Below, piece by piece: positions 2,562-59,297 of a DNA stretch of 61,337 nt. This stretch comes from a virus, in IMG/VR virus record IMGVR_UViG_3300021438_000016, positions 1 through 61,337 of that record, one strand, 5' to 3'. The position numbers were made by a program, and so were the translations under genes. Numbering within the stretch: position 1 is the stretch's first letter; each line of letters starts with the position of its first letter. The notes under the pieces are model-generated. The model saw only the letters and a program-made list of their open reading frames with translations, was not told the origin of the DNA and searched no databases.

Positions 2562-2590
2562 AGCCCCGGCTGCAACCGGGGCTTTTTTTA
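2562..2590 (+). terminator. Rho-independent terminator after primase-helicase
   Basis: An 8-bp GC-rich stem (AGCCCCGG / CCGGGGCT) with a 6-base loop is followed by seven T. It ends transcription of the + strand primase-helicase gene. The opposing late operon also ends here, and the same stem could stop it weakly, but on that strand no T run follows. Confidence 0.9.
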
Positions 2591-5500
2591 TTCCTCCGCG
2601 TATACCGGCACTTCGGCAAAACGCTGACGGAATGGCTTGGACAGGTAGATACCGGCCTTGGTTTCCGCGCTCTGTTTGGCGCGGGTGCGGGCCGAGGCGT
2701 TGATGACACTTTGAGTGATCGCCAGACCCTTCTCAGGGTTTACCAGAGAAAAATGGTTCATCTCATCTCTGATGTCAGCCATGGCTTCGTAATCCTGCCG
2801 TGCACGAGCGTTGAAATATTGATTCAACAAGCCTTGTCTACGGTCAAGAATCTGCTTCTCAATATCTTTTTGCCAAGCGTTGAGTTGATACTGACCGGCC
2901 AACCGCTGCGGAACAAAGCCAACCGCCTGAAGCGCCGCTTCGGTTAAAGATACGTCTTCAATAATCGGATCGCCTCGGGTTGTCAGTGCGCCCTCTTTAT
3001 TTAGCCGGATGGACTTGGCAATGTTGCGCATTCCAGCCATAGGGGTGACGCCTTCCAAGAACCGATACACGTCGCCTTGAGCCAGCTTGTCTACGCCCCG
3101 TGCGATCTGTAGGGCCATACCGGCAGAAGCACCAGCGGCCTCGGCAACGTAGTTCTTCAGATCATCTTCAGCGGAGGCAGTGTTCTTGCCGTCGCGCAGC
3201 CCCAAAAGCCCACCGATGAACGGCAGTTGTTTGGTACCCCCCAAAAGTGGGGAACTCGCATATCCCACTTTACTAGCAATATCACCGCCTAAATCGCCCA
3301 GCCAACCACGAGTAATGCGGTTAGCCATGGGCTGGCCCCACATGTCGGACAAGTAGTTGTAGAAGGCGAAGTCAAAATCGTACGGGTCATCCTTGTCATC
3401 AAGGATCAGATTCATCAGATCCCGAACGATGTAGTAGAACGGCATCCCCATGGTCCCGGCAAAAATACCGGACATACCCATCAGGCCCGTGAACTGGATG
3501 CGAGCTACCTTGCGAACCTCAGGGTCCACGCTGCTAAACATATCTTTGAACAGGCGCACATAGAGTGCAGCCATGTGCGCAGGGAACTTCTTGAACATGA
3601 AGATGACGCGCATCGCTGGGCTCAAAAAGATTTTTGGAGCCAGCCCATGTTGATAGTCTCCATGCGCTTTTGTAACCATCTCAGTAGACTTGCGGATCGC
3701 TTGGTCGTACTTCTCTTGGTTACTCATGCCGGTTTTGCCACTCAACCGCTGCTTCATCAGTTGGTAAGTTGCAAGCGCACCGGCCTCACGGTTGATCGCT
3801 TCAGCCCGCTGGAACATGATCGCGGAGTATTTGGTGAAGGCACGGACACCCTTACCAAACGCGGAAGTTTCACCCGATCCGTATTTAGCTATCGAACCAA
3901 AGTCGTGGCTAGGGTCTCCGGCATTCAAGATGCCTTGATCGCGGAACGAGAGGAACACGCGCTCCATCTCGGGGAGGGCCGCGATAGCTTCCGCGCGGGT
4001 CTTGCCTTTGGCAACAGCGGCGTCGATCTTAGCCTCGGCAGATTCCACCAACTTCTCGCCATACGTCTGCTGGCCCAATGAACCGCCAATGATCTTAGTC
4101 ATGGCGCTGAACAGGGTGTTCATGATTTTGACTTGGCCCAGCCCGTGGAACTCGCCAGCCAGCAGCGGGAACATCACAGTCGGTGTCTGCAACATATTTA
4201 CAAGAGCAGACGCAGGGTTGAAGCCCATGTAGTACGTGAAGCCAAGCCGGTTCACGTTGTTGGCGATCCTGTTCAGAGGATCATCCGAGCGGATTGTATC
4301 TACCCCATAGACAACCTTGGCGACGTGCGTGATGATGTCACTCATCTTCGTGTCGGGGTTGCTGGCGTTCTGTTTGCGGGCGCTGTCGATCTCATGCTCG
4401 ATCTGACCCTTATATGCAACTTGGGAGATCTGCGTGGCATAGATCGGAGCTTTATGGTCAAACGCAGCGAGGGTGTCCTCGATATAACCCGCCGTACCTT
4501 TACGCTCAAGACCAAACTGCCGAAGCATGGATGACTCTGGGTGCAGCAGCAGGGACGCCTGATACAGACGCTCCTTCATTTCTTCACGAGCCTCGCGGAT
4601 GCGGTCAGCCGTAGAGGTGGGGTCGTCCTTGTGGATAGGCAGTGCCTTGTCTACGTTGGCTTTGATCTCGTCAAAGAACTGATTGACCGGCCCGCTCTTG
4701 TAGCTGAACTTCCTGAAGTCCGTCTGTTTGAATGACTGGACGTGCGCTATGCCTTCTTTCTTTAGCTCATCAAGGCGCGTCTTCTGAGCGCCCAGACTGG
4801 TGTAGGACTCGGCAACGGGCTTGCCGTTCTTAGGGTTAAAGTACGTGACCCAATAGTCCCCTATGCGGACGAATGGCGTGTAGGCTTCGTTGAATTTTTT
4901 ATATGTCTCGTCTAGCCCAGACAGGATCTTGTCCGCTTTAACGGGGTCATCCTGATACTGGTCGTGCACAGACTGCTTTAGGGCTTCAAAGTATTCATTA
5001 CGAAACTGCCGGTACTGTCCAACAAGATCCGACGCTAGCTTCTGAAACTTAGGATGTAGCTTGTCGTACTCAGCCCGCAAAGAAACGTAATCAGCAACCG
5101 CCTCAGGGCCGCGAGTCTTGGCAAACTCTGGAGAGGGGTCTTTACTGCCGGTCACATCAATTGCAAGATCAGATGCGCGGTTAACGAAGGCGTCCATCGC
5201 CTTCTTACCGGCAGGATCAAACCTAGCGATTTCCAGAGCCCTGTTCATGAAGTCCGAACTGCGTTTGAGCAGGGTGTTTTTCATAGCCCCAGCTTTACGC
5301 AAGCTGTTCTCAATCTCGCCAATCTGATTGAACCCCATATCCCGCGCGTTGGCGGCAATACTAGACATGGGCAGCAAAGATAGGCCCCACCGCCCCGCTG
5401 CATCTGCTGCGTTTATAAAGAACTCGCTGTTCTTGGGAGCGTCAAGCAACTGCTGCATCGGAGCGACCATTGCCCGGTTCATCGCAACTTGAGGAAGTGC

Positions 5501-8500
5501 GGCTGCGGCTGTCGATACCGTGGAAGGGACTCTGACGTTTGCAGGTAGGTCGTCAGGGGCTAAAGGATAATTATTATTCGGGGGAGGAGCCCCAATCAAA
5601 AGAGATTTTGTAGCTTCAGCAGGGGTCTTGGTAGAAGGAGGAGCCCCTTCATGAACAAGCGCACTGTAGATGTCCAGCAGTTCCGTCAAGGCACTGGGAT
5701 CTTTAAGCCCTAAAATGTCGGCAATAGCTTGGACAAACTGGGTCCACAACGAGGTCTTGCTTTCATGAGGCAGCGCAGCGAGGAGGTACTGGAACTCGGG
5801 GTTGCTGAGTCCTTCAGCAATAAACTCTGATTCAGACTTCAGACCATAAGGAAGCTCTTTAATATCTTTGGTCTTGTAGACCGCCTCTGCTTTGGCAAGT
5901 ACGTCCTTGTATAACCTGCGCAAACGATTGACGGCCGCAAGTTGCTTACCGGGAAGCGGAGTCCTGATTGCTCTTTCCGTCAAGGCATGGACAATTTCGT
6001 GGGCGACCGTGTGCTCACTGCCAGCGTAGACAGAGTTGACAAATACCGTGTTTGATCCGCTATCAAACATCCCCGCAATAGTACCGGGACGGTACCCCTT
6101 GAAGGCTTCTTGCTCTCGCAGGATTCCATCGTCGAGCCTAACTTTTATCCGGTCTGAGGGCAGGAACCGCTGCGTTGCTTGGGCACGTTGGGCAATGTCC
6201 CTGATGACAGGGTTTTTGCTATCCAGCAGGGCTTTTATTACTGCGGGCATGTCGCCCTTCGTAACTGCATCTGCTAGCGCAGCATTATCTTCCGTAGCCA
6301 GCCACGTCTTGCTGTGGGCCTTGATACCTAACGCACGGGCAAAATCTTCCCTAGAAATAGGGAATTGATCGTTGACAGGTTCGTACGCCGCTTCTTGGGT
6401 TACTTGAAAAAACTCATCATCTTCTTCCGCGTTTCTTTTAGCCCTAGCTACTTCAGCATCCTTAGACTTTTGAACCTTTGCCAGATAGTCGAAAGTCTCC
6501 TGCGTCAGAGCTTTATTTGCGTGGGCGTCTTTCCATATTTTTTGAACATCTTTATCTAGCGCAGCCCATGCTGGCTCAGACTCAGCGCTTCTAAATTGGT
6601 TATCCCATTCATCTTGTGGCGAGCCTACTTCTACTTCGGCGGCAGGGGTAGGAGTCGTGGAGGCAGGGGTGGTTTCAAAATTTAACTCTTCAAACGGAAC
6701 ATAATTTTCTCCCGTTTTTCCTTGGAGGTCGTACCGAACCTTGACAAACTGTTTCCCATCCATAGTTTCGGGTTCACCGATAACCGTGACGGGAATGTCA
6801 GTGTCTTTGTTACTCCATATAGCTGCCCTGCCCTGCGTTACTGGAGCGGGCTGTGTTCCTTCTCCCACACCAGCTTGTTGAGGAGGCTCCCCAGCAAGTG
6901 CCACTCTAGGGGGTGCAGATGTTGCAACTCCTCCGGGGGGTAGTCCTCCTCCGGGTTCGCTAGGTACGCCAACGCTTGCTCCACTTGGGATATTGACATC
7001 TGTAGGAGGTGGTGTGTTTGGTTGGACATTTGGTTGCCCTTGTTGTTGCGCGGCTGCTGCGCGGGCTTTAAGTTCTAGCCTCGCTTTTCTCAGCCAGATT
7101 TTGACTTCAAGAGAAGGATCTTGTATTGCCTCTAACCTACTCTTTTCCGCGAGTATGTTATCGACCGGCCAACTTTCAAGTTTATAATCAAGTTTAGGCT
7201 GTTCCGTCTGAACCTGCTGCTGTGCTGCGGCACGATCTTGGGCCTCTGCTTCCCGCTGAGCCATGGCGGCTTCGGATGCGGCACGCTGTCTAGCTTGATA
7301 CTCAGCAATATCTCGCTCTTGCTGCTGCTTCCTAAGCTTATCCGCTTTCTGTAGCGCGTCGATACGTACTTGGTCGTTTTGCTGCTGTTGAGCTTGCTCT
7401 TGCTGCTGTTGAGCCTGTTGGTTCTGTTGCTGCTGTTGTTGAAGAGCAGCTTGTGCTGCGGCAGCTTGGGCCACTTGGTCAGCTTGTGCAGCCTCCTCAA
7501 GAGTGGCCGCGTTGGTTTGTTCTTCTAGAGACGGGTCAATTCTGGGGGCGGCAAATTTTACCGAAGCTCTTGATTCGGGGCTAAGCACCTTATTTTCAAC
7601 GAGCAGATTGAACTCGTCCTCGGTGATGCCCTCTTGGCTCTTTAGCTTAGCCATGGCCGCTGCAAGGTTCTCAGCGGGGCCGGGGCCAACAGACCCAGCT
7701 TGTTTGGTTTCGTCGAGGCTATATTCCGGTTGCTTCGCAGGGGTTTCCCGCATAGCTTGCACCACAGCACCCGGAGCACCAATACCCACACCACCAGCCG
7801 CGCCCTTGGCAGCAGCCAGCAACATCCGGTCTACGTTCTTAGGATCAGACAACCCACCCGGAGCGCCAGCAAGCTGCTCAGCAATAATGTCTAATGATTC
7901 TTGGACAGCTTCAGTTGTACTTTCAGTAGCAGCGGTTTTGCCAATTTCTTTAGCAAGCCGAAGCTTGAAGCTTTCTGGCACGATGGTGGATCTTGCGGCG
8001 AGTTCTTCTGCCACTTTAGCCTGCCCACGCAACCCCAACTGATTCATCAACCGAGCGGGGAGAATACCGTCTAGTGCAGCTTTAAGCGCACCGATGCCAA
8101 AAGCAAGTCCGGGTTCAAGTTTGTTGGTCTCTTCGTGGATACCCGCAAAAGTTTCAGGCGCGTTGAGGCCAAAGCTACCCGCACCGATACCTACGTTAAA
8201 GCCAGTCTCGCCAGCTTGAGATCTGGCAGCGGGAGCGAGTCGATTACCTAGGCGGGTAGCGTATGTTTCAGCCGCCTCTCCAGCCAAACCACGTTGTGCA
8301 GCAGCACGAGCAGCCGCTGCCTCAACCCCATACTTAGCAGCACCACGCGCAGCAAGAGAGCCAGCCCCTCCGGTCAGCGCCATCAAACCTACGTTGGGTA
8401 AATTCTCACCAACAGATTCCGCAATAAATCCTGCAACATCTGAAGGCCCACGGATACCGCTAAGTGACGAGTAGGAGGTCGGGTATCTCTCCTCAAGCTC

Positions 8501-8794
8501 TTGGCGCTTAGCTTTACCTTCCGCTAAATATCTATTAGCAGCTTCGTCGAACCCAAGCGCGGACGCGCCAAGACCCATAGCCTCACTGCCGGTAGCACCG
8601 AGCCCTCCGAGTCCCCGCTGAAGGGAGTTGCTAAATTGACGCCCAAGGGGAATATCTCTTGGGTCCGGGCGAGTTTCTAGGTCAAGTTGTTGTAAACGCC
8701 CCTGAAGTTTGGCAATCTGTGCGTATATAGACTCATCAGAATCCGTATCTGGAAAAGATACTGGCCCAATCTTCGGGATGTTTACAACCTTCAT
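2588..8794 (-). CDS. Giant internal virion / polyvalent-type ejection protein (2068 aa) with HExxH
   Basis: This is the largest gene and the last of the late operon. Its start overlaps the previous stop by one base (TAATG). The N-terminal third is Ala/Gly-rich. Residues about 430-530 are a Gln/Ala-rich coiled-coil region. At about residues 931-935 an HEIVH zinc-peptidase motif (AHEIVHALTE) is followed some 60 residues later by ESEFIAEGL, which could give a third ligand. The C-terminal half carries hydrophobic stretches around FTGLMGMSGIFAGTMG and a PLLGG region, as in polyvalent proteins that enter the cell with phage DNA. It probably sits inside the capsid and is ejected, perhaps forming a periplasmic conduit like the large T7 internal protein. 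The virion role is inferred from size and position; protease activity is a motif-level prediction. Confidence 0.7.
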   Translation of the reverse strand: MKVVNIPKIGPVSFPDTDSDESIYAQIAKLQGRLQQLDLETRPDPRDIPLGRQFSNSLQRGLGGLGATGSEAMGLGASALGFDEAANRYLAEGKAKRQELEERYPTSYSSLSGIRGPSDVAGFIAESVGENLPNVGLMALTGGAGSLAARGAAKYGVEAAAARAAAQRGLAGEAAETYATRLGNRLAPAARSQAGETGFNVGIGAGSFGLNAPETFAGIHEETNKLEPGLAFGIGALKAALDGILPARLMNQLGLRGQAKVAEELAARSTIVPESFKLRLAKEIGKTAATESTTEAVQESLDIIAEQLAGAPGGLSDPKNVDRMLLAAAKGAAGGVGIGAPGAVVQAMRETPAKQPEYSLDETKQAGSVGPGPAENLAAAMAKLKSQEGITEDEFNLLVENKVLSPESRASVKFAAPRIDPSLEEQTNAATLEEAAQADQVAQAAAAQAALQQQQQQNQQAQQQQEQAQQQQNDQVRIDALQKADKLRKQQQERDIAEYQARQRAASEAAMAQREAEAQDRAAAQQQVQTEQPKLDYKLESWPVDNILAEKSRLEAIQDPSLEVKIWLRKARLELKARAAAAQQQGQPNVQPNTPPPTDVNIPSGASVGVPSEPGGGLPPGGVATSAPPRVALAGEPPQQAGVGEGTQPAPVTQGRAAIWSNKDTDIPVTVIGEPETMDGKQFVKVRYDLQGKTGENYVPFEELNFETTPASTTPTPAAEVEVGSPQDEWDNQFRSAESEPAWAALDKDVQKIWKDAHANKALTQETFDYLAKVQKSKDAEVARAKRNAEEDDEFFQVTQEAAYEPVNDQFPISREDFARALGIKAHSKTWLATEDNAALADAVTKGDMPAVIKALLDSKNPVIRDIAQRAQATQRFLPSDRIKVRLDDGILREQEAFKGYRPGTIAGMFDSGSNTVFVNSVYAGSEHTVAHEIVHALTERAIRTPLPGKQLAAVNRLRRLYKDVLAKAEAVYKTKDIKELPYGLKSESEFIAEGLSNPEFQYLLAALPHESKTSLWTQFVQAIADILGLKDPSALTELLDIYSALVHEGAPPSTKTPAEATKSLLIGAPPPNNNYPLAPDDLPANVRVPSTVSTAAAALPQVAMNRAMVAPMQQLLDAPKNSEFFINAADAAGRWGLSLLPMSSIAANARDMGFNQIGEIENSLRKAGAMKNTLLKRSSDFMNRALEIARFDPAGKKAMDAFVNRASDLAIDVTGSKDPSPEFAKTRGPEAVADYVSLRAEYDKLHPKFQKLASDLVGQYRQFRNEYFEALKQSVHDQYQDDPVKADKILSGLDETYKKFNEAYTPFVRIGDYWVTYFNPKNGKPVAESYTSLGAQKTRLDELKKEGIAHVQSFKQTDFRKFSYKSGPVNQFFDEIKANVDKALPIHKDDPTSTADRIREAREEMKERLYQASLLLHPESSMLRQFGLERKGTAGYIEDTLAAFDHKAPIYATQISQVAYKGQIEHEIDSARKQNASNPDTKMSDIITHVAKVVYGVDTIRSDDPLNRIANNVNRLGFTYYMGFNPASALVNMLQTPTVMFPLLAGEFHGLGQVKIMNTLFSAMTKIIGGSLGQQTYGEKLVESAEAKIDAAVAKGKTRAEAIAALPEMERVFLSFRDQGILNAGDPSHDFGSIAKYGSGETSAFGKGVRAFTKYSAIMFQRAEAINREAGALATYQLMKQRLSGKTGMSNQEKYDQAIRKSTEMVTKAHGDYQHGLAPKIFLSPAMRVIFMFKKFPAHMAALYVRLFKDMFSSVDPEVRKVARIQFTGLMGMSGIFAGTMGMPFYYIVRDLMNLILDDKDDPYDFDFAFYNYLSDMWGQPMANRITRGWLGDLGGDIASKVGYASSPLLGGTKQLPFIGGLLGLRDGKNTASAEDDLKNYVAEAAGASAGMALQIARGVDKLAQGDVYRFLEGVTPMAGMRNIAKSIRLNKEGALTTRGDPIIEDVSLTEAALQAVGFVPQRLAGQYQLNAWQKDIEKQILDRRQGLLNQYFNARARQDYEAMADIRDEMNHFSLVNPEKGLAITQSVINASARTRAKQSAETKAGIYLSKPFRQRFAEVPVYAEE

Positions 8795-46387: not shown

Positions 46388-46492
46388 GAAGGAGAGGAAG
46401 GGGTGGGAAGGACGTTCTTACCCCAAGTAAAAACTTGAGACTGCAAAGCAGTCCCTATGCCATAAAAACACAAAAATAACCCACCTAAAAAC

Positions 46493-46521
46493 TTGACAAA
46501 GTATATTCTTTGTGGTATAAT
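46493..46521 (+). promoter_or_regulatory. Perfect consensus promoter of module A
   Basis: TTGACA and TATAAT are spaced 17 bases: all 12 consensus positions match. It should fire strongly with the host sigma70 polymerase and drive the run of small genes from 46612. Confidence 0.93.
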
Positions 46522-46584
46522 GACCGTAGGTCATGTGGTGTTGTTCAGCCGCATGACCGAGGGGCAATCCCGCCCCGACGTAGC

Positions 46585-46597
46585 GTAAAAATTTTAC
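46585..46597. promoter_or_regulatory. Palindromic repeat copy 4
   Basis: GTAAAAATTTTAC is the only copy with a central A. It ends 14 bases before the start codon at 46612, directly 5' of the ribosome site. Confidence 0.85.
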
Positions 46598-46611
46598 AGA
46601 AGAGGTGTGAG

Positions 46612-46713
46612 ATGAGTGCTGAGAGAGTGATGAACTGGGTAGCCGCGTTTTGTGTGGGCTACGTAATCGGCGTGTCAATCGCCGCGTTGGTAATCTTTTA
46701 TTGGAGAGGGTGA
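46612..46713 (+). CDS. Single-span membrane microprotein (33 aa)
   Basis: The ATG follows a GAGG ribosome site and is the first start codon of module A. The product is short, with one hydrophobic helix (VAAFCVGYVIGVSIAALVIF) reaching almost to the end. An early membrane microprotein could change host membrane functions or exclude other phages; this is inference. It overlaps no neighbour, the next ATG lying one base after its stop. Confidence 0.7.
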   Translation: MSAERVMNWVAAFCVGYVIGVSIAALVIFYWRG

Positions 46714-46714
46714 G

Positions 46715-46900
46715 ATGAGAATTAACGGTTGGTCAATCGTGGATTCCCCTGCGGGGGTGTCGGTGCGGTACGAGACGCGTGACCCGGAGATATGTTTCCG
46801 GGTTGCTAATGACATGATCATCATTACGATCTACAAAAACTATGAGGACGACACGCCTGTAACTTTGACTGTGCCACTAGAGATGGAAGGGAGCGAGTGA
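46715..46900 (+). CDS. Small beta-rich early protein (61 aa)
   Basis: The product has alternating hydrophobic residues (VSVRYETRDPEICFRVAND, IIITIYKNYED) suggesting a small beta fold. It has a GAGAGGG ribosome site and joins the next gene through TGATG. Not recognised. Confidence 0.65.
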   Translation: MRINGWSIVDSPAGVSVRYETRDPEICFRVANDMIIITIYKNYEDDTPVTLTVPLEMEGSE

Positions 46901-47091
46901 TGGACAAGAACGAGGAATACGCCATGAGGCGCGTGTTAATTGCAAAAGCCGTTTTGAAGATCGTGCAGGACATTCAGAAAAATCACTACGATGCCATCGA
47001 GACTGTGCTTGCTTGGCATTCAACCGAAGATCTTGAAGCGTTCATTGAGTACGACAACCCCCCAACGAGGACTAAAGAAAATGCTAGTTAA
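46900..47091 (+). CDS. Small helical early protein (63 aa)
   Basis: Mostly helical (AMRRVLIAKAVLKIVQDIQ). ATG at 46900 overlaps the previous stop; a GTG one codon earlier is an alternative. It overlaps the next gene by 11 bases. Function unknown. Confidence 0.6.
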   Translation: MDKNEEYAMRRVLIAKAVLKIVQDIQKNHYDAIETVLAWHSTEDLEAFIEYDNPPTRTKENAS

Positions 47092-47287
47092 AAACGACGA
47101 CGGACAGATGGCGATCCGCAAGGACTGGGGACCGACACTGATCGGGATCGGATACACACGCCCCGGCCCAAAGAACTGCGCGGTCATATCGTGGGACATG
47201 GAGAGGTTGCAGACCAGTCTCCTGCTACGGCACAAGGCACCGATGCGGACCCGCTTAGTAAAACTTTTACGGTTTGGGAGAGTGTGA
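47081..47287 (+). CDS. Small early protein (68 aa)
   Basis: Begins MLVKNDDGQMAIRKDWG and ends in a basic segment (MRTRLVKLLRFGRV), part of which is encoded by palindrome copy 5. The ribosome site is only moderate. Overlap with the next start (TGATG) shows coupling. Not recognised. Confidence 0.55.
   Translation: MLVKNDDGQMAIRKDWGPTLIGIGYTRPGPKNCAVISWDMERLQTSLLLRHKAPMRTRLVKLLRFGRV
47258..47270. promoter_or_regulatory. Palindromic repeat copy 5
   Basis: GTAAAACTTTTAC sits in the end of the 68-residue gene (coding VKLL) and 16 bases before the start codon of the first GYT-family gene at 47287. Confidence 0.8.
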
Positions 47288-47514
47288 TGGATGGGTACAC
47301 GGTAGAAGAGTTTGAGGCGATGATGAAGTTGATGGGTACGCAGGGGATCTACAACACGGCAGTTGCCAACGGGTGGGCAAAGCCCCCTCTTATCCTGACA
47401 CCGCAAGAAAGGATGATGCTGGTCAATCAGTATCGTGCAAACAAGGACATCCCTGCATATTTTTTCAACCTCGGAGATCAGGGCAAGTGGGGAGAAAAGC
47501 GTGGAGAAGAGTGA
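47287..47514 (+). CDS. GYT-x-EEF family small protein, member 1 (75 aa)
   Basis: Begins MDGYTVEEFEAMMKLMG and later has LTPQERMMLVNQYRANKD. The same plan, GYTxEEFxA...LMG then P-x-x-R-x-x-x-I-x-x-Y, recurs in the next three genes, so they are tandem paralogues. The helical, acidic proteins may bind a host protein. Strong GGGAGAG ribosome site; overlaps the next member by 14 bases. Family not recognised. Confidence 0.7.
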   Translation: MDGYTVEEFEAMMKLMGTQGIYNTAVANGWAKPPLILTPQERMMLVNQYRANKDIPAYFFNLGDQGKWGEKRGEE

Positions 47515-47680
47515 AGAGGTCACCGGCTACACCGAAGAGGAGTTCAGGGCGATAGCCACGTTGATGGGGATAGGTACTTCTGTAAAGAACGTGTGGGTTG
47601 AGACGGAACCCATGACGCCTGAGTACAGGTTCAAGTTAATCCAAGCATATAGGAGGGTGTTAGAAAGTGGAGACTACTGA
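47501..47680 (+). CDS. GYT-x-EEF family small protein, member 2 (59 aa)
   Basis: A GTG start at 47501 with GGGGAG 8 bases upstream gives VEKSEEVTGYTEEEFRAI, aligning with the starts of the other members. It continues LMGIGTSVKN and MTPEYRFKLIQAYRRV. A longer in-frame form would lie mostly inside member 1 and has no ribosome site. Overlaps the next by 14 bases. Confidence 0.65.
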   Translation: MEKSEEVTGYTEEEFRAIATLMGIGTSVKNVWVETEPMTPEYRFKLIQAYRRVLESGDY

Positions 47681-47861
47681 AGACAAGATGGAGGGATACA
47701 CGCACGAGGAGTTCTGCGCTCTGCTTGATCTGATGGGGGTGAACTACGTCACGCGCGACCCGAACGCACGGAGCCCAAGGGATCGGATGAAGATCATCAA
47801 CTACTTCCGCTCGCAGAAGCGAGCAGAGCGCAAGGTGCAGGAGTTCTTGCATGAAATCTGA
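47667..47861 (+). CDS. GYT-x-EEF family small protein, member 3 (64 aa)
   Basis: GTG start with AGGAGG about 11 bases upstream; MEGYTHEEFCALLDLMG follows from residue 8, then SPRDRMKIINYFRSQKR. An ATG at residue 8 is an alternative. Overlaps the next member by 11 bases. Confidence 0.65.
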   Translation: METTEDKMEGYTHEEFCALLDLMGVNYVTRDPNARSPRDRMKIINYFRSQKRAERKVQEFLHEI

Positions 47862-48033
47862 GGAGGAAGAGGAAGAGGAAGAGATGGAGGGCTACACGCT
47901 GGGTGAGTTCCACGCGTTGCTCCTGCTTTTGGTAGACATAGAACCACGGCACCATGAGTTCATTGCGAAGTATTTTGGAAATGACATGACTCCGAAGCAG
48001 AGGATGGACTACATCAAGGTGCTCATGCGCTAG
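47851..48033 (+). CDS. GYT-x-EEF family small protein, member 4 (60 aa)
   Basis: An acidic run (MKSEEEEEEEE) precedes MEGYTLGEFHALLLLL, and the end TPKQRMDYIKVLMR matches the other members. The middle is shorter and lacks LMG. The run of E comes from GAG/GAA repeats, probably slippage. Last of the four tandem genes. Confidence 0.65.
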   Translation: MKSEEEEEEEEMEGYTLGEFHALLLLLVDIEPRHHEFIAKYFGNDMTPKQRMDYIKVLMR

Positions 48034-48094
48034 GCTTGAGTTGTGTTGATTTCGTTTTTGTTCGTACGTGGGCACACCCACTAGTTTGATTAAC

Positions 48095-48107
48095 GTAAAA
48101 CTTTTAC
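48095..48107. promoter_or_regulatory. Palindromic repeat copy 6
   Basis: GTAAAACTTTTAC lies in the gap after the GYT-family genes, 15 bases before the start at 48123, followed by AGAGAGG that is the ribosome site. Confidence 0.87.
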
Positions 48108-48122
48108 AGAGAGGACAAAGAA

Positions 48123-48914
48123 ATGAGAAGTGTCTTGCATAACCTGCCACGGATTCACAACTTCACATCGGCAGAGAGAACGTACAACAACATCGAGCCC
48201 ATCAGGGGGACGACGATCCGTCCGTTGGGTAATCGCAGAGCCAAGCACTATGCGATTGAGAAGATCAGCGACACGCAGTATGCGTGTACGTTGTACGGAC
48301 ACCGTGTAATAACCTACACAAAAGAGACCAAGCCGGGAGAGGGTACGCTGGGTGAGATTAGCCTGTGCGGGTACGACACACAGACCACGCGCGGGTTCAT
48401 CACGCGGGTGCTGGGTACAGACTGCTATTCACACAAGGGTAAAACCTACATTGAGATAGGCAAGAGAGTCACTGAGGTGGATGGGAAATACAAGGTCACG
48501 GGCGCGTACTACCTGCCGTCCAATCACACCTTGCAGATCCGTCACGCGCAAGTGTTCAACCCTGTGCCCGTGAAGAAAAAAGTCCTAGACCGTGAGGTTA
48601 CAAAAGAACTTCGGGACAAGTACAAGAATGAGATGGTCGCCGCCGAGTCCATGTTGCGTATGGGTACGCCGAGGTATAGCGAGGAGTACGACCCGCGCGA
48701 GAGGAAGGATTACTACAGTATGCAGTTCCTGACTGACCTCACGAGCGAGGAGATGAGTGAGTACCTGTGGTTGATCGCGGGGGACAGCTATGCCCACGAC
48801 CGCATTCAGCCTACGTACCGTTCATACATCGTGGACGCCCTGTATCACATTGCAGCGCTTGACGCTATAACTATTCACAAGGAGGTGGAGGTGCCCGTCG
48901 GACAACGGGCGTGA
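48123..48914 (+). CDS. Early protein of unknown function (263 aa)
   Basis: GAGG lies about 8 bases before the ATG. The N-terminal half is beta-rich (TQYACTLYGHRVITYTKET, GKTYIEIGKRVTEVDG), and the C-terminal half is helical (EVTKELRDKYKNEMVAAES, LTSEEMSEYLWLIAGD). No enzyme motif or family is recognised. It is the last gene before module B. Confidence 0.7.
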   Translation: MRSVLHNLPRIHNFTSAERTYNNIEPIRGTTIRPLGNRRAKHYAIEKISDTQYACTLYGHRVITYTKETKPGEGTLGEISLCGYDTQTTRGFITRVLGTDCYSHKGKTYIEIGKRVTEVDGKYKVTGAYYLPSNHTLQIRHAQVFNPVPVKKKVLDREVTKELRDKYKNEMVAAESMLRMGTPRYSEEYDPRERKDYYSMQFLTDLTSEEMSEYLWLIAGDSYAHDRIQPTYRSYIVDALYHIAALDAITIHKEVEVPVGQRA

Positions 48915-49000
48915 GGGTGGGGCGCAACACCCCAAAAAGTTTCCCTAAAAACTTGGGTCTGCACAACGCAGACCGTACGCCAAAAAGTTCCCCTAAAAAC

Positions 49001-49029
49001 TTGACATTGTACAGAAAGTATGTTATAAT
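49001..49029 (+). promoter_or_regulatory. Perfect consensus promoter of module B
   Basis: TTGACA and TATAAT spaced 17 bases, all 12 positions consensus. It drives the MoxR/VWA operon. Confidence 0.93.
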
Positions 49030-49093
49030 GACCGTAGGTCATGTGGCATGAAGCACATGACCGGGGAAGTTTCCCCAGACCGTAACCGTAACC

Positions 49094-49106
49094 GTAAAAC
49101 TTTTAC
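49094..49106. promoter_or_regulatory. Palindromic repeat copy 7
   Basis: GTAAAACTTTTAC, preceded by a short CCGTAA triplication, ends 20 bases before the MoxR start codon. Confidence 0.85.
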
Positions 49107-49126
49107 ACACAGAGGAAGTTAGAGAA

Positions 49127-50203
49127 ATGGCTCAGATCAATCTTGCAAACAAGACCGTATCCCTTGCCGAAGCCGCCCGCCTGATCGAAGCGGTGGGCAC
49201 GAGCGTCACCATCATGCTTCAGGGCGAGCCGGGTATCGGTAAGTCCAGCATCCTGAAGATGATGAGCGACAAGACCCCGGACGGTGAGACTCGCATCAAG
49301 TCCTACATCGACGTGACTAACTTAGATCTCGGCGACATCGCTATGCCTTGGATCAACAAAGAGGACGGGTGCACACACTACGTACCCAACGCGCGGTTCG
49401 GGTTGCACACAGGCGCACCTGTGTTACTGATGCTCGACGAGTTGAGCAAGGGCCCCGACGCTATTCAGAACATGCTCCTGCCATTGTGTCTTGAGCGCCG
49501 CATGGGTGAGAAGAAGAATCACAAGAACACGATTATCTTTGCAACAGGCAACCTGTCCGGTGACGGGGTGGGCGACAAGCTCAAGCCCCATGCAATGAAT
49601 CGCTTCACGGTGGTGAAGGTTCGCAAGCCTACGTACAGCGAGTGGATCGAGTGGGGTATCGCCAACGGCATCGTGCCTGAGGTGCTCGCGGCAGTGAAGC
49701 AGTTCCCCGACTGCCTTGCATCGTATCAAGACGGTGACTCTCAGAAAGAGAACACCATGATCTATCACCCGACCCGCGCAGTGCAGGCGTTCGTATCCCC
49801 ACGGTCGCTAGAAAAAGCTAGTGACATCGTACGTATGCGTCGCGTGATCGGTGACGATCCGATGGAGGCCGCGCTGATCGGTACTGTGGGCGCGACGTTC
49901 GCACAGAAGCTGATGACGTTCCTGCACGTAGCAGATCAACTGCCAGCGCGTGAGAACTATCTTAACAACCCCGAGACTTGTCCCGTCCCTACCGACCCCA
50001 TGGCTCTGTGCATGTTGGTGTTTAGTGCAGTGACGTGGGTCGAGCGCAAGGACATGGACGCATGGATGAAGTACCTGCAACGCTTCAGCAAAGAGCATCA
50101 GGCTCTGTTCTGTACGGGTATCTGGAACTCACCCAAGCAGGGCATGGCGGCGACGTGCCGACCGTTCGTTGACTGGGCGCGGGTCAACAAGTACATCCTG
50201 TGA
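49127..50203 (+). CDS. MoxR-type AAA+ ATPase (358 aa)
   Basis: Walker A GEPGIGKSS (33-41), Walker B LLMLDE (100-105), sensor 1 ATGN (139-142) and MNRF (158-161) with a candidate arginine finger. The layout and the SPRSLEKASDIVR stretch fit MoxR-family ATPases that remodel proteins together with a VWA partner. That partner is encoded two genes downstream (50398). It may remodel a host or phage complex early in infection. Promoter, structured leader and palindrome lie directly upstream; AGAGGAAG is the ribosome site. Confidence 0.85.
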   Translation: MAQINLANKTVSLAEAARLIEAVGTSVTIMLQGEPGIGKSSILKMMSDKTPDGETRIKSYIDVTNLDLGDIAMPWINKEDGCTHYVPNARFGLHTGAPVLLMLDELSKGPDAIQNMLLPLCLERRMGEKKNHKNTIIFATGNLSGDGVGDKLKPHAMNRFTVVKVRKPTYSEWIEWGIANGIVPEVLAAVKQFPDCLASYQDGDSQKENTMIYHPTRAVQAFVSPRSLEKASDIVRMRRVIGDDPMEAALIGTVGATFAQKLMTFLHVADQLPARENYLNNPETCPVPTDPMALCMLVFSAVTWVERKDMDAWMKYLQRFSKEHQALFCTGIWNSPKQGMAATCRPFVDWARVNKYIL

Positions 50204-51609: not shown

Positions 51610-51776
51610 GAGAGCACACACAAGAAGAACTTATCGCACTGCTTGCCCTGTCTGGCATCGAGGTGGAGTACATCGACGAGGTGGCTCTGCTTCGTGTCAC
51701 GGGGCACAACGACGACGACTCAGCAATACTTAAAGCGCTATTGCGTAAAACTTTTACAGAGAGCAAATCATCATGA
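51525..51776 (+). CDS. Small protein, possible distant GYT-family member (83 aa)
   Basis: Starts inside the end of the VWA gene (85-base overlap) with a GAGGAAG ribosome site. Residues about 30-43 (EHTQEELIALLALSG) resemble the GYT-x-EEF-x-ALL-x-LMG motif, and ILKALLRKTF ends the helix-rich part. No in-frame ATG or GTG with a ribosome site lies after the VWA stop, supporting the overlapping start. Membership of the family is suggestive only. Confidence 0.55.
   Translation: MDRSRANALGSDSEQGVEAPVRSISQHVGEHTQEELIALLALSGIEVEYIDEVALLRVTGHNDDDSAILKALLRKTFTESKSS
51745..51757. promoter_or_regulatory. Palindromic repeat copy 9
   Basis: GTAAAACTTTTAC lies in the end of the 83-residue gene (coding RKTF) and 15 bases before the start at 51773, with AGAGAG next to it. 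Confidence 0.85.
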
Positions 51777-57465: not shown

Positions 57466-59297
57466 TATTTGTCGATCTGGAAACCTACTACGACCGAGAC
57501 TTCAGCCTCTCCAAAATATCTACCGAAGAGTACATCCGTGACCCAAGGTTTGAAGTCATCGGCGTGGCGGTTAAAGTGGACGATGAGGAAACGCAGAGCT
57601 TCTCTGGCTCGCGTGCCGAAACGAAGGCTTGGCTACAACAGTTCGATTGGGGGAATTCCCTCGCCTGTGCTCACAACGCGCTTTTTGATGCGGCAATTAT
57701 GGCGTGGCACTTCGAGATTTATCCGAAGGCTTGGGCTGACACTATGTCGATGGCTCAAGCGTTATTGGGGACACGGTGCAAGGTCGGACTAGCGCACCTC
57801 GCTTCGTACTTTAATATAGGTACAAAAGGGACCGAGGTAATTAACGCATTGGGTAAGACGCGTAAAAGTTTTACACATGTCGAGATGGAGCGGTACATGT
57901 CGTACTGCCGAAATGACGTTGACCTGACCGCCGCGCTGTATACACGGATGTACAACTTCAGGGCCAACGATGACTTCACGTTCGAGGAGTTCCCTCTAAA
58001 AGAACTTAAGCTAATCGACCTCACTATCCGCATGTTTACTCAGCCCGTACTTGAAGTGGACGTGCCACTGCTGGAGGCGCACCTCATCAAGGTGAAAGAA
58101 GACAAGGCAAAGCTACTTGACGATGCGGGTATCAACCTTGAAGACGTGATGAGCAACCCGAAGTTTGCCGAGATACTACGCAGACTTGGTATTGATCCCC
58201 CCACCAAAATATCTCCCACTACTGGCAAACAGACCTACGCTTTTGCCAAGACGGACGAGGCGTTTAGGGCGTTGGCTGAGCATCCCGACCTGCGGGTGCA
58301 AGCGGTGGTAGCTGCGCGGCTTGGGGTGAAAACAACCATCGAGGAGTCTCGCACCGAGCGGTTCATCGGCATAGGCAAGCGGGGGCCACTGCCAGTCCCT
58401 CTTAAGTATTACGCTGCCCATACAGGCAGGTGGGGCGGGTCTGACAAACTTAATATGCAGAACCTACCTAGTAGGGGGAACGCATCCGCCCTGAAAAAGT
58501 CTCTCCGCGCACCGGCTGGGCACGTCATCATCTCATGCGACTCCTCGCAGATCGAGGCGCGGACCCTTGCGTGGCTGGCTGGACAGGAAGACTTGGTGAC
58601 TGCCTTCGCTAACGGCGAGGATGTCTACAAGATCATGGCGTCAAAAATTTATCATAAGCCGGTTACTGAAATAACCAAGGAGGAGCGGTTCTTCGGAAAA
58701 ACCGTGACCCTTGCATGCGGTTTTAGTATGGGGGCGGAGAAGTTTCATGGCATGTTGTCTCTCATACCGGGAGCAAAGATCAGCATGGGCGAGGCCGAGC
58801 GCATCATCGCCGTGTACCGGGGGGTCAACCCCAAGATCGTGCGTCTGTGGAAACTCGCAGACAGAGCCATACACTACATGGGTGCCTCCCAAGGCTGGAG
58901 GTTCGGTAGGGACGACCTGCTGGAGTTGGGGCCCAAGTGCATCATCCTGCCCAACACCATGAAGATCGAGTACCACGACCTGAGGAACACCAACATAGAT
59001 GGATGGAGGTACAGCACGCTGCGGGAGAGAAACGTAAAGCTATACGCGGGAAAATTGGTTGAAAATGTGGTGCAGGGGCTCGCGCGGATCATTGTGGGTG
59101 AGCAGATGCTGAGGATCGCTAAGAAGTACCGTCCCGTCTTGACAGTTCATGATGCAGTGTCTATAATTGTTCCAGAGCAGGAGTCTATCGAGGCGATGGC
59201 GTATGTTCAGGAATGTATGCGCTGGGTTCCTAAGTGGGCTAATGGTTTACCCGTAGATTGCGAAATAGGATGCGGCCCAACTTATGCAGATTCTTGA
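57462..59297 (+). CDS. DNA polymerase family A with 3'-5' exonuclease (611 aa)
   Basis: Exonuclease motifs: D5-x-E7 (VDLETY), N72/D76 (AHNALFDA), Y148/D152 (YCRNDVDLT), so proofreading looks intact. Polymerase motif A CDSSQIEART (D360), motif B R409-K413-x3-L417-x3-F421, motif C VHDAVS (D564). Residue 417 matches E. coli Pol I Phe762 and is leucine. It replicates the phage genome with the primase-helicase at the left end. ATGA joins it to the HNH gene upstream. Confidence 0.93.
   Translation: MIFVDLETYYDRDFSLSKISTEEYIRDPRFEVIGVAVKVDDEETQSFSGSRAETKAWLQQFDWGNSLACAHNALFDAAIMAWHFEIYPKAWADTMSMAQALLGTRCKVGLAHLASYFNIGTKGTEVINALGKTRKSFTHVEMERYMSYCRNDVDLTAALYTRMYNFRANDDFTFEEFPLKELKLIDLTIRMFTQPVLEVDVPLLEAHLIKVKEDKAKLLDDAGINLEDVMSNPKFAEILRRLGIDPPTKISPTTGKQTYAFAKTDEAFRALAEHPDLRVQAVVAARLGVKTTIEESRTERFIGIGKRGPLPVPLKYYAAHTGRWGGSDKLNMQNLPSRGNASALKKSLRAPAGHVIISCDSSQIEARTLAWLAGQEDLVTAFANGEDVYKIMASKIYHKPVTEITKEERFFGKTVTLACGFSMGAEKFHGMLSLIPGAKISMGEAERIIAVYRGVNPKIVRLWKLADRAIHYMGASQGWRFGRDDLLELGPKCIILPNTMKIEYHDLRNTNIDGWRYSTLRERNVKLYAGKLVENVVQGLARIIVGEQMLRIAKKYRPVLTVHDAVSIIVPEQESIEAMAYVQECMRWVPKWANGLPVDCEIGCGPTYADS
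57862..57874. promoter_or_regulatory. Palindromic repeat copy 12
   Basis: GTAAAAGTTTTAC lies inside the polymerase gene (coding RKSF, between exonuclease motifs), with no nearby start codon. The rightmost copy found. Confidence 0.8.

Follow-up and report, generated by a model that had tools for sequence, protein, structure and literature searches.

Duplicated sigma-70-type promoters of an uncultivated tailed phage carry a three-segment element that may pair as DNA at the transcription start and as RNA in the leader

What kind of control element has been duplicated in the early region of an uncultivated virus, and which of its structures have been kept by selection? The question is raised by two paralogous modules, A and B, at positions 46,428 to 49,126 of the IMG/VR record IMGVR_UViG_3300021438_000016, a virus sequence of 61,337 bases that was analyzed over its whole length (the window). 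An earlier note had described in both modules the same order of upstream hairpin, consensus promoter, hairpin at the RNA 5' end, second hairpin, palindrome, and ribosome site, and it had taken base changes that preserve pairing as a sign of a selected structure. This description turned out to be largely right, apart from one weak example of covariation, and the interpretation is supported in part and can be extended. With about as much confidence as doubt, we propose that A and B are duplicated early-promoter/leader cassettes read by sigma-70 polymerase, which would combine a protective stem at the RNA 5' end with a DNA-level hairpin at the transcription start.

Re-reading of the sequence bore out the coordinates and the element order of both modules. 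Each contains a TTGACA-17-TATAAT promoter with a TG before the -10 box (TG-N-TATAAT; 46493..46521 in A and 49001..49029 in B, plus strand), which is an extended -10 promoter of the sigma-70 type and matches the consensus at 12 of 12 positions, in agreement with the consensus promoter of the earlier note. Between 43.3 and 61.3 kb, 12/12 matches with an extended -10 box are confined to these two modules. About 20 bases from the -10 box onwards had been described as identical; the identity extends over 23 nucleotides, TATAATGACCGTAGGTCATGTGG, which occur nowhere else in the window and would not be expected to recur by chance.

The region around the start consists of three segments. Segment a (ATGRNC) begins with the last two bases of the -10 box and is followed by a loop of the form G(N)1-2A, segment b (GNYCATG...) lies just past the predicted start, and segment c follows about 20 nucleotides downstream. 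The usual -10 spacing places the predicted +1 on the A of the loop, the seventh base past the -10 box (A46528 and A49036, plus strand). Segment b pairs with a as a 6-bp DNA dyad, which has a C-G(N)1-2A-G loop and straddles the start from about -8 to +7 (ATGACC-GTA-GGTCAT in both modules, 46520..46534 and 49028..49042, plus strand). In the RNA, the partner of b is c, and the two form a hairpin with a stem from +2 (plus strand; 46529..46558 with the arms 46529-46539 and 46548-46558 in A, 49037..49062 with the arms 49037-49045 and 49054-49062 in B). With +1 at the loop A, segment a belongs to the promoter DNA but not to the transcript, which would begin one base before b. The GACC-GTA-GGTC hairpin is thus probably absent from the RNA, as only its 3' arm would be transcribed and this arm pairs with c.

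After a gap of 0-2 nucleotides, the b-c hairpin is followed by a second hairpin (GGGGC/GCCCC, 46561..46576, in A; 49063..49076, abutting the first, in B; plus strand), the palindrome, and the ribosome site. Both leaders (about 57 nucleotides) fold more stably than all of 300 dinucleotide-shuffled sequences, with -30.5 vs. -17.1 kcal/mol for A (z = -4.4) and -24.3 vs. -13.4 kcal/mol for B (z = -4.1), and energies like those of shuffled sequences were not seen.

Homologous modules exist in other viruses, which are denoted here by L and a number. Searches with the ATPase encoded 3' of module B revealed L003 and L004 as close relatives (94-96% identity); with an alignment, 80 loci were kept from about 500 relatives, the more distant ones having about 45-48% identity. 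A promoter-pattern search revealed homologous modules in L003 (two), L004 (two), L007, L008, and L011, the last being a deep relative with an about 36% identical ATPase and corresponding neighboring genes. A second pattern added L112, another deep relative (ATPase 32%, DUF2201 protein and a neighbor about 37.5%), and L109, an apparently unrelated phage; this pattern presupposed the loop core, and for these two modules only arm complementarity counts as independent. The modules of L011 and L112 stand before the same genes as in the window. The total is eleven modules in eight viruses, two in the window and nine elsewhere, with 10 distinct sequences. L109 and L112 are the only ones kept of seven new viral contigs that matched the -10/dyad pattern, because four had broken arms and L111 had no -35 box. 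Four pattern matches in cellular genomes were not convincing, two being T-box-leader-like and two lacking the rest of the design, and the stretches read of the nearest isolates by terminase (DSL-LC04, HTVC023P, HTVC027P, and 023Pt_psg01) contain neither repeated palindromes nor such promoters.

Both helices covary across these modules. The a-b dyad is 100% paired in all eleven, exclusively by Watson-Crick pairs and with two double-change pairs (A-T/G-C and A-T/C-G/T-A); none of 500 shuffles reached its score, and the signal was lost when the partner segment was slid. The b-c helix of the eight close modules is 95.9% paired, also with two double-change pairs, and its covariation score (0.247 vs. 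0.140) was matched by one of 500 shuffles. Six cells of this helix are G.U and none is A.C, which argues for pairing at the RNA level, and the absence of any wobble pair from a-b fits DNA. The earlier suggestion of a selected RNA and/or DNA structure is therefore supported by both helices. A switch of the RNA between a-b and b-c is unlikely, because the promoter's own RNA would lack a, and even with a included b-c was clearly favored in most of the nine modules folded; the exceptions are L008, in which b-c is not the clear winner, and L109, which has a mixed fold.

The loops of the dyad are always C-GNA-G or C-GNNA-G, namely GTA, GTTA, or GCTA among the close modules, GTA in L011 and L109, and GAA in L112. 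Such loops are extraordinarily stable in DNA according to Yoshizawa et al. (1997), as quoted in PMC6479982, and these loop ends and this closing pair are also needed for extrusion of the phage N4 promoter (PMC4496689). Scanning with the inner bases left free, together with the relatives' loci, yielded at least 104 distinct sites, with 19 sites that have three inner pairs among the matches listed; GNA/GNNA loops are present in the 11 modules among these 19 and in none of the 8 others. A local RNA hairpin of at least 7 bp at +2/+3 accompanies 10 of the 11 modules vs. none of the 8 others among the matches listed (p = 1e-4, a post hoc value).

Strong consensus promoters are found about 100 bp 5' of the ATPase gene in many cousins. 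The best hairpin starts at the sixth to ninth base past the -10 box, i.e., at about +1, in 14 of 44 distinct promoters vs. 21 of 264 shuffles (p = 5e-5), and folding of the transcript strand exceeds that of its complement in 31 of 48 cases (p = 0.02); both p-values are optimistic, since the phages are related. Such +1 hairpins with unrelated sequences occur in L026, L042, L043, L053, and L095. The idea that 5'-terminal hairpins may protect the transcript is consistent with the stem from +2 and with this enrichment at +1, although the earlier note had not settled which hairpin lies at the RNA 5' end.

Several observations weigh against the proposal of a protective stem combined with a DNA-level hairpin. 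Many family promoters have no +1 hairpin, so protection would not be universal. The hairpin arms of the group L027, L029, L030, and L037 resemble the palindrome of these phages, and the hairpins may be operators. In each covarying helix the variation is confined to two pairs, among sequences that are related to one another, and the pattern that led to L109 and L112 took the loop class for granted. L011 contains a-b but no b-c, and L008 has one broken b-c pair and competition from a-b.

If the cassettes work as proposed, host sigma-70 polymerase would start at A46528 and A49036 and drive the ATPase/DUF2201/replication region of a tailed phage. The emerging segments b and c would close the RNA 5' end into a stem with one unpaired base, and the second stem-loop would form close behind. 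RppH and RNase E prefer single-stranded 5' ends, and 5' secondary structure is protective (PMC3997798). Because of this preference, the early mRNA should be long-lived, as the b-c stem would leave almost no single-stranded 5' end and would block both enzymes. More tentatively, the a-b dyad could form as a hairpin of the non-template strand while the initiation bubble is expanded, or as a cruciform extruded by supercoiling. During initial transcription the non-template strand from about -8 to +7 is single-stranded as a result of scrunching. A GNA hairpin at the start might affect opening, help the polymerase to leave a promoter that binds it very tightly, respond to supercoiling, or attract a factor. 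It is possible, although we hold this to be rather doubtful, that b is doubly selected, for a DNA mini-hairpin on the discriminator with a role in escape or factor recruitment, comparable to that of ops at a later stage, in elongation, and for the protective stem at the RNA 5' end. A single three-segment element of a, b, and c, kept in a large family of uncultivated phages, would then govern both initiation and message stability.

The single parts of this arrangement are of known kinds. The non-template hairpin of ops, which has a GGTA loop closed by C-G, recruits RfaH (PMC5995543), and a coding-strand G..A loop closed by C-G is present by sequence in all 11 modules, with GTA, GTTA, GCTA, or GAA instead of GGTA. 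However, the module dyad has a 6-bp stem, it overlaps the -10 box and the predicted start rather than an elongation pause, and no RfaH-like partner is known. The stabilizing 5'-terminal stem-loops of ompA and papA have a stem within 1-2 nucleotides of the 5' end, comparable to +2 from the predicted start here. In contrast to these, the modules are duplicated phage early promoters in which the 5' arm doubles as an arm of a DNA dyad and the stabilization is putative. In the literature searched, we did not find these parts described as overlapping on a single strand, nor such an overlap as conserved in a family of uncultivated phages.

The covariation also bears on another view, in which a protein would bind the a-b dyad as its operator at the start and the RNA hairpin would be incidental. 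A dyad over the start is the classical position of a repressor, and cousin promoters carry short TGT...ACA dyads at the start that resemble their own palindromes. However, the two modules of L004 differ in their arms and in loop spacing (3 or 4) and yet stay complementary, which a single protein need not require, and b-c covaries independently and with G.U pairs; we therefore consider an operator unlikely. Still less probable is antitermination of the type known from phage HK022, by which the pair of neighboring leader hairpins would act in cis on the transcribing polymerase so that it reads through terminators. The putL and putR sites of HK022 form two stem-loops just 3' of the early promoters, and the putRNAs share sequence similarity (PMC9378689). 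The modules likewise form a paralogous pair, and their early transcripts would begin with two stem-loops separated by 0-2 nucleotides. However, the leaders are shorter (43-61 rather than about 70 nucleotides), the loops and the second hairpin vary freely between modules, unlike in putRNAs (PMC9378689), and the a-b dyad is left unexplained.

The loop class recalls the early promoters of N4, at which a cruciform hairpin is read by a virion RNA polymerase that is injected with the DNA. The C-GNA-G loop with its C-G closing pair is shared, and a 2068-amino-acid virion protein of the window (2588-8794, minus strand) matches phrog_2206, "virion RNA polymerase", with E = 2.9e-12. However, this match is limited to a zinc-peptidase-like HExxH stretch at residues 897-1052, and the protein resembles no polymerase structure. 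The template strand carries the GNA loop of N4, together with -8G and +1C (PMC4496689), whereas the loop of the modules is on the coding strand, next to sigma-70 elements, and neither -8G nor +1C fits when it is read the other way. An N4-type promoter was rejected as highly improbable, because of the wrong loop strand, the lack of -8G and +1C, and the absence of a recognizable virion polymerase from the record, which may be incomplete. The HExxH stretch matches part of the N4 virion RNA polymerase profile and also DarB-like profiles, and the protein resembles a polyvalent injected protein rather than a polymerase.

Upstream of the start, AAAAACTTG is present twice per module, one copy overlapping the -35 box (46487..46495 in A, 48995..49003 in B; plus strand) and the other lying farther upstream (46429-46437 and 48947-48955). 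The upstream hairpins (46437..46455 in A, with CAAGTTTTT on its left, and 48956..48974 in B; minus strand) together with CAAGTTTTT or AAAAACTTG are, read leftwards, the two top terminator-like patterns of the region, one per module, and may simply insulate against leftward transcription; overall, the scan found terminator-like sites to be no more frequent than in shuffles. The change from GACTGC to GTCTGC in this hairpin had been cited as covariation. One compensated pair is real, but it is weak evidence, since several relatives do not share this hairpin: it is missing from L004b and L011, and in its place L008 has an unrelated stem and L003b a different dyad. A 12/12 sigma-70 match also lies inside the DNA polymerase gene (59139-59167) and at the matching place in L017 and L098, where it encodes a conserved stretch and is probably a coincidence. 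Dyads were seen inside the -35/-10 spacers of L027 (3129), L029 (5886), and L030 (1914), for example with ACATAGGG-tat-CCCTATGT-like arms in L027, and are possible repressor sites within the promoter.

The palindrome, which had been listed as a component of the modules, is not specific to them. GTAAAANTTTTAC has 11 exact copies in the window, all within 44.0-57.9 kb and mostly just before ribosome sites (44084, 44978, 46325, 46585, 47258, 48095, 49094, 50342, 51745, 53857, and 57862); the module copies are GTAAAAATTTTAC (46585..46597) and GTAAAACTTTTAC (49094..49106), both on the plus strand. Shuffled sequences yielded at most 4 matches even when two mismatches were tolerated, and a start codon with Shine-Dalgarno-like purines follows within 45 nucleotides in 8 of the 11 cases, compared to 14% at random. 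The exact sequence is repeated and not the pairing alone, which would fit DNA sites bound by a protein, and GTAAAANTTTTAC is probably a separate dispersed site of the phage. Cousins contain other palindromes, some of them intragenic, with copy numbers from several to 20 in a fetched stretch: CTAACA-N(1-2)-TGTTAG (with N, up to 20 in 13 kb), ATTAAC-N4-GTTAAT, GTCACA-N-TGTGAC, TTATCA-N2-TGATAA, and GTAACA-N2-TGTTAC. A family-wide system of dispersed operators with changing specificity is possible. The nearest described parallel are the start-associated sequences of cluster K mycobacteriophages, a 13-bp repeat that stands just ahead of translation starts and numbers 11-19 per genome (PMC3203893). 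Like these, GTAAAANTTTTAC precedes many start codons; however, the start-associated sequence is asymmetric (GGGATAGGAGCCC), whereas GTAAAANTTTTAC is a perfect palindrome, is found within genes as well, and is replaced by others in cousins.

The structure and packaging genes of the window (terminase, portal, tail, and the 2068-amino-acid virion protein) are oriented leftward, and the early/replication genes (AAA_5 ATPase, DUF2201 metallopeptidase/VWA protein, family A DNA polymerase, and exonuclease) rightward. Both modules are situated in the rightward region. The first open reading frame 3' of A encodes 33 amino acids with a hydrophobic stretch (46612..46713, plus strand), and B lies immediately 5' of the AAA_5 ATPase gene (49127..50203, plus strand). 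Between A and B, tandem small paralogous open reading frames (47287-48033) share the motif GYTxEEFxALLxLMG, a weaker copy of which is found downstream (51612-51776); they have no Pfam match. No DNA-binding domain, as expected for a candidate palindrome regulator, was recognizable in the small early open reading frames. An Rfam scan of the window gave no match at the gathering score, and blastn of the module region against isolated phages gave none. In the deep relative L016, a YDFLSPENYARITG-like peptide is repeated at or near the ends of several unrelated open reading frames (709-1197, 6128-6496, and 6816-7388), possibly as a mobile coding repeat.

If the proposal of duplicated cassettes with a shared strand is true, the modules would be a compact regulatory part of natural origin, with one strand connecting a sigma-70 promoter to the fate of the transcript. 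Whether hairpins in non-template DNA have a role in initiation can be tested on them directly. In addition, testable start sites and a regulon of dispersed palindromes become available for a large family of environmental, uncultivated phages with the AAA ATPase/DUF2201 pair.

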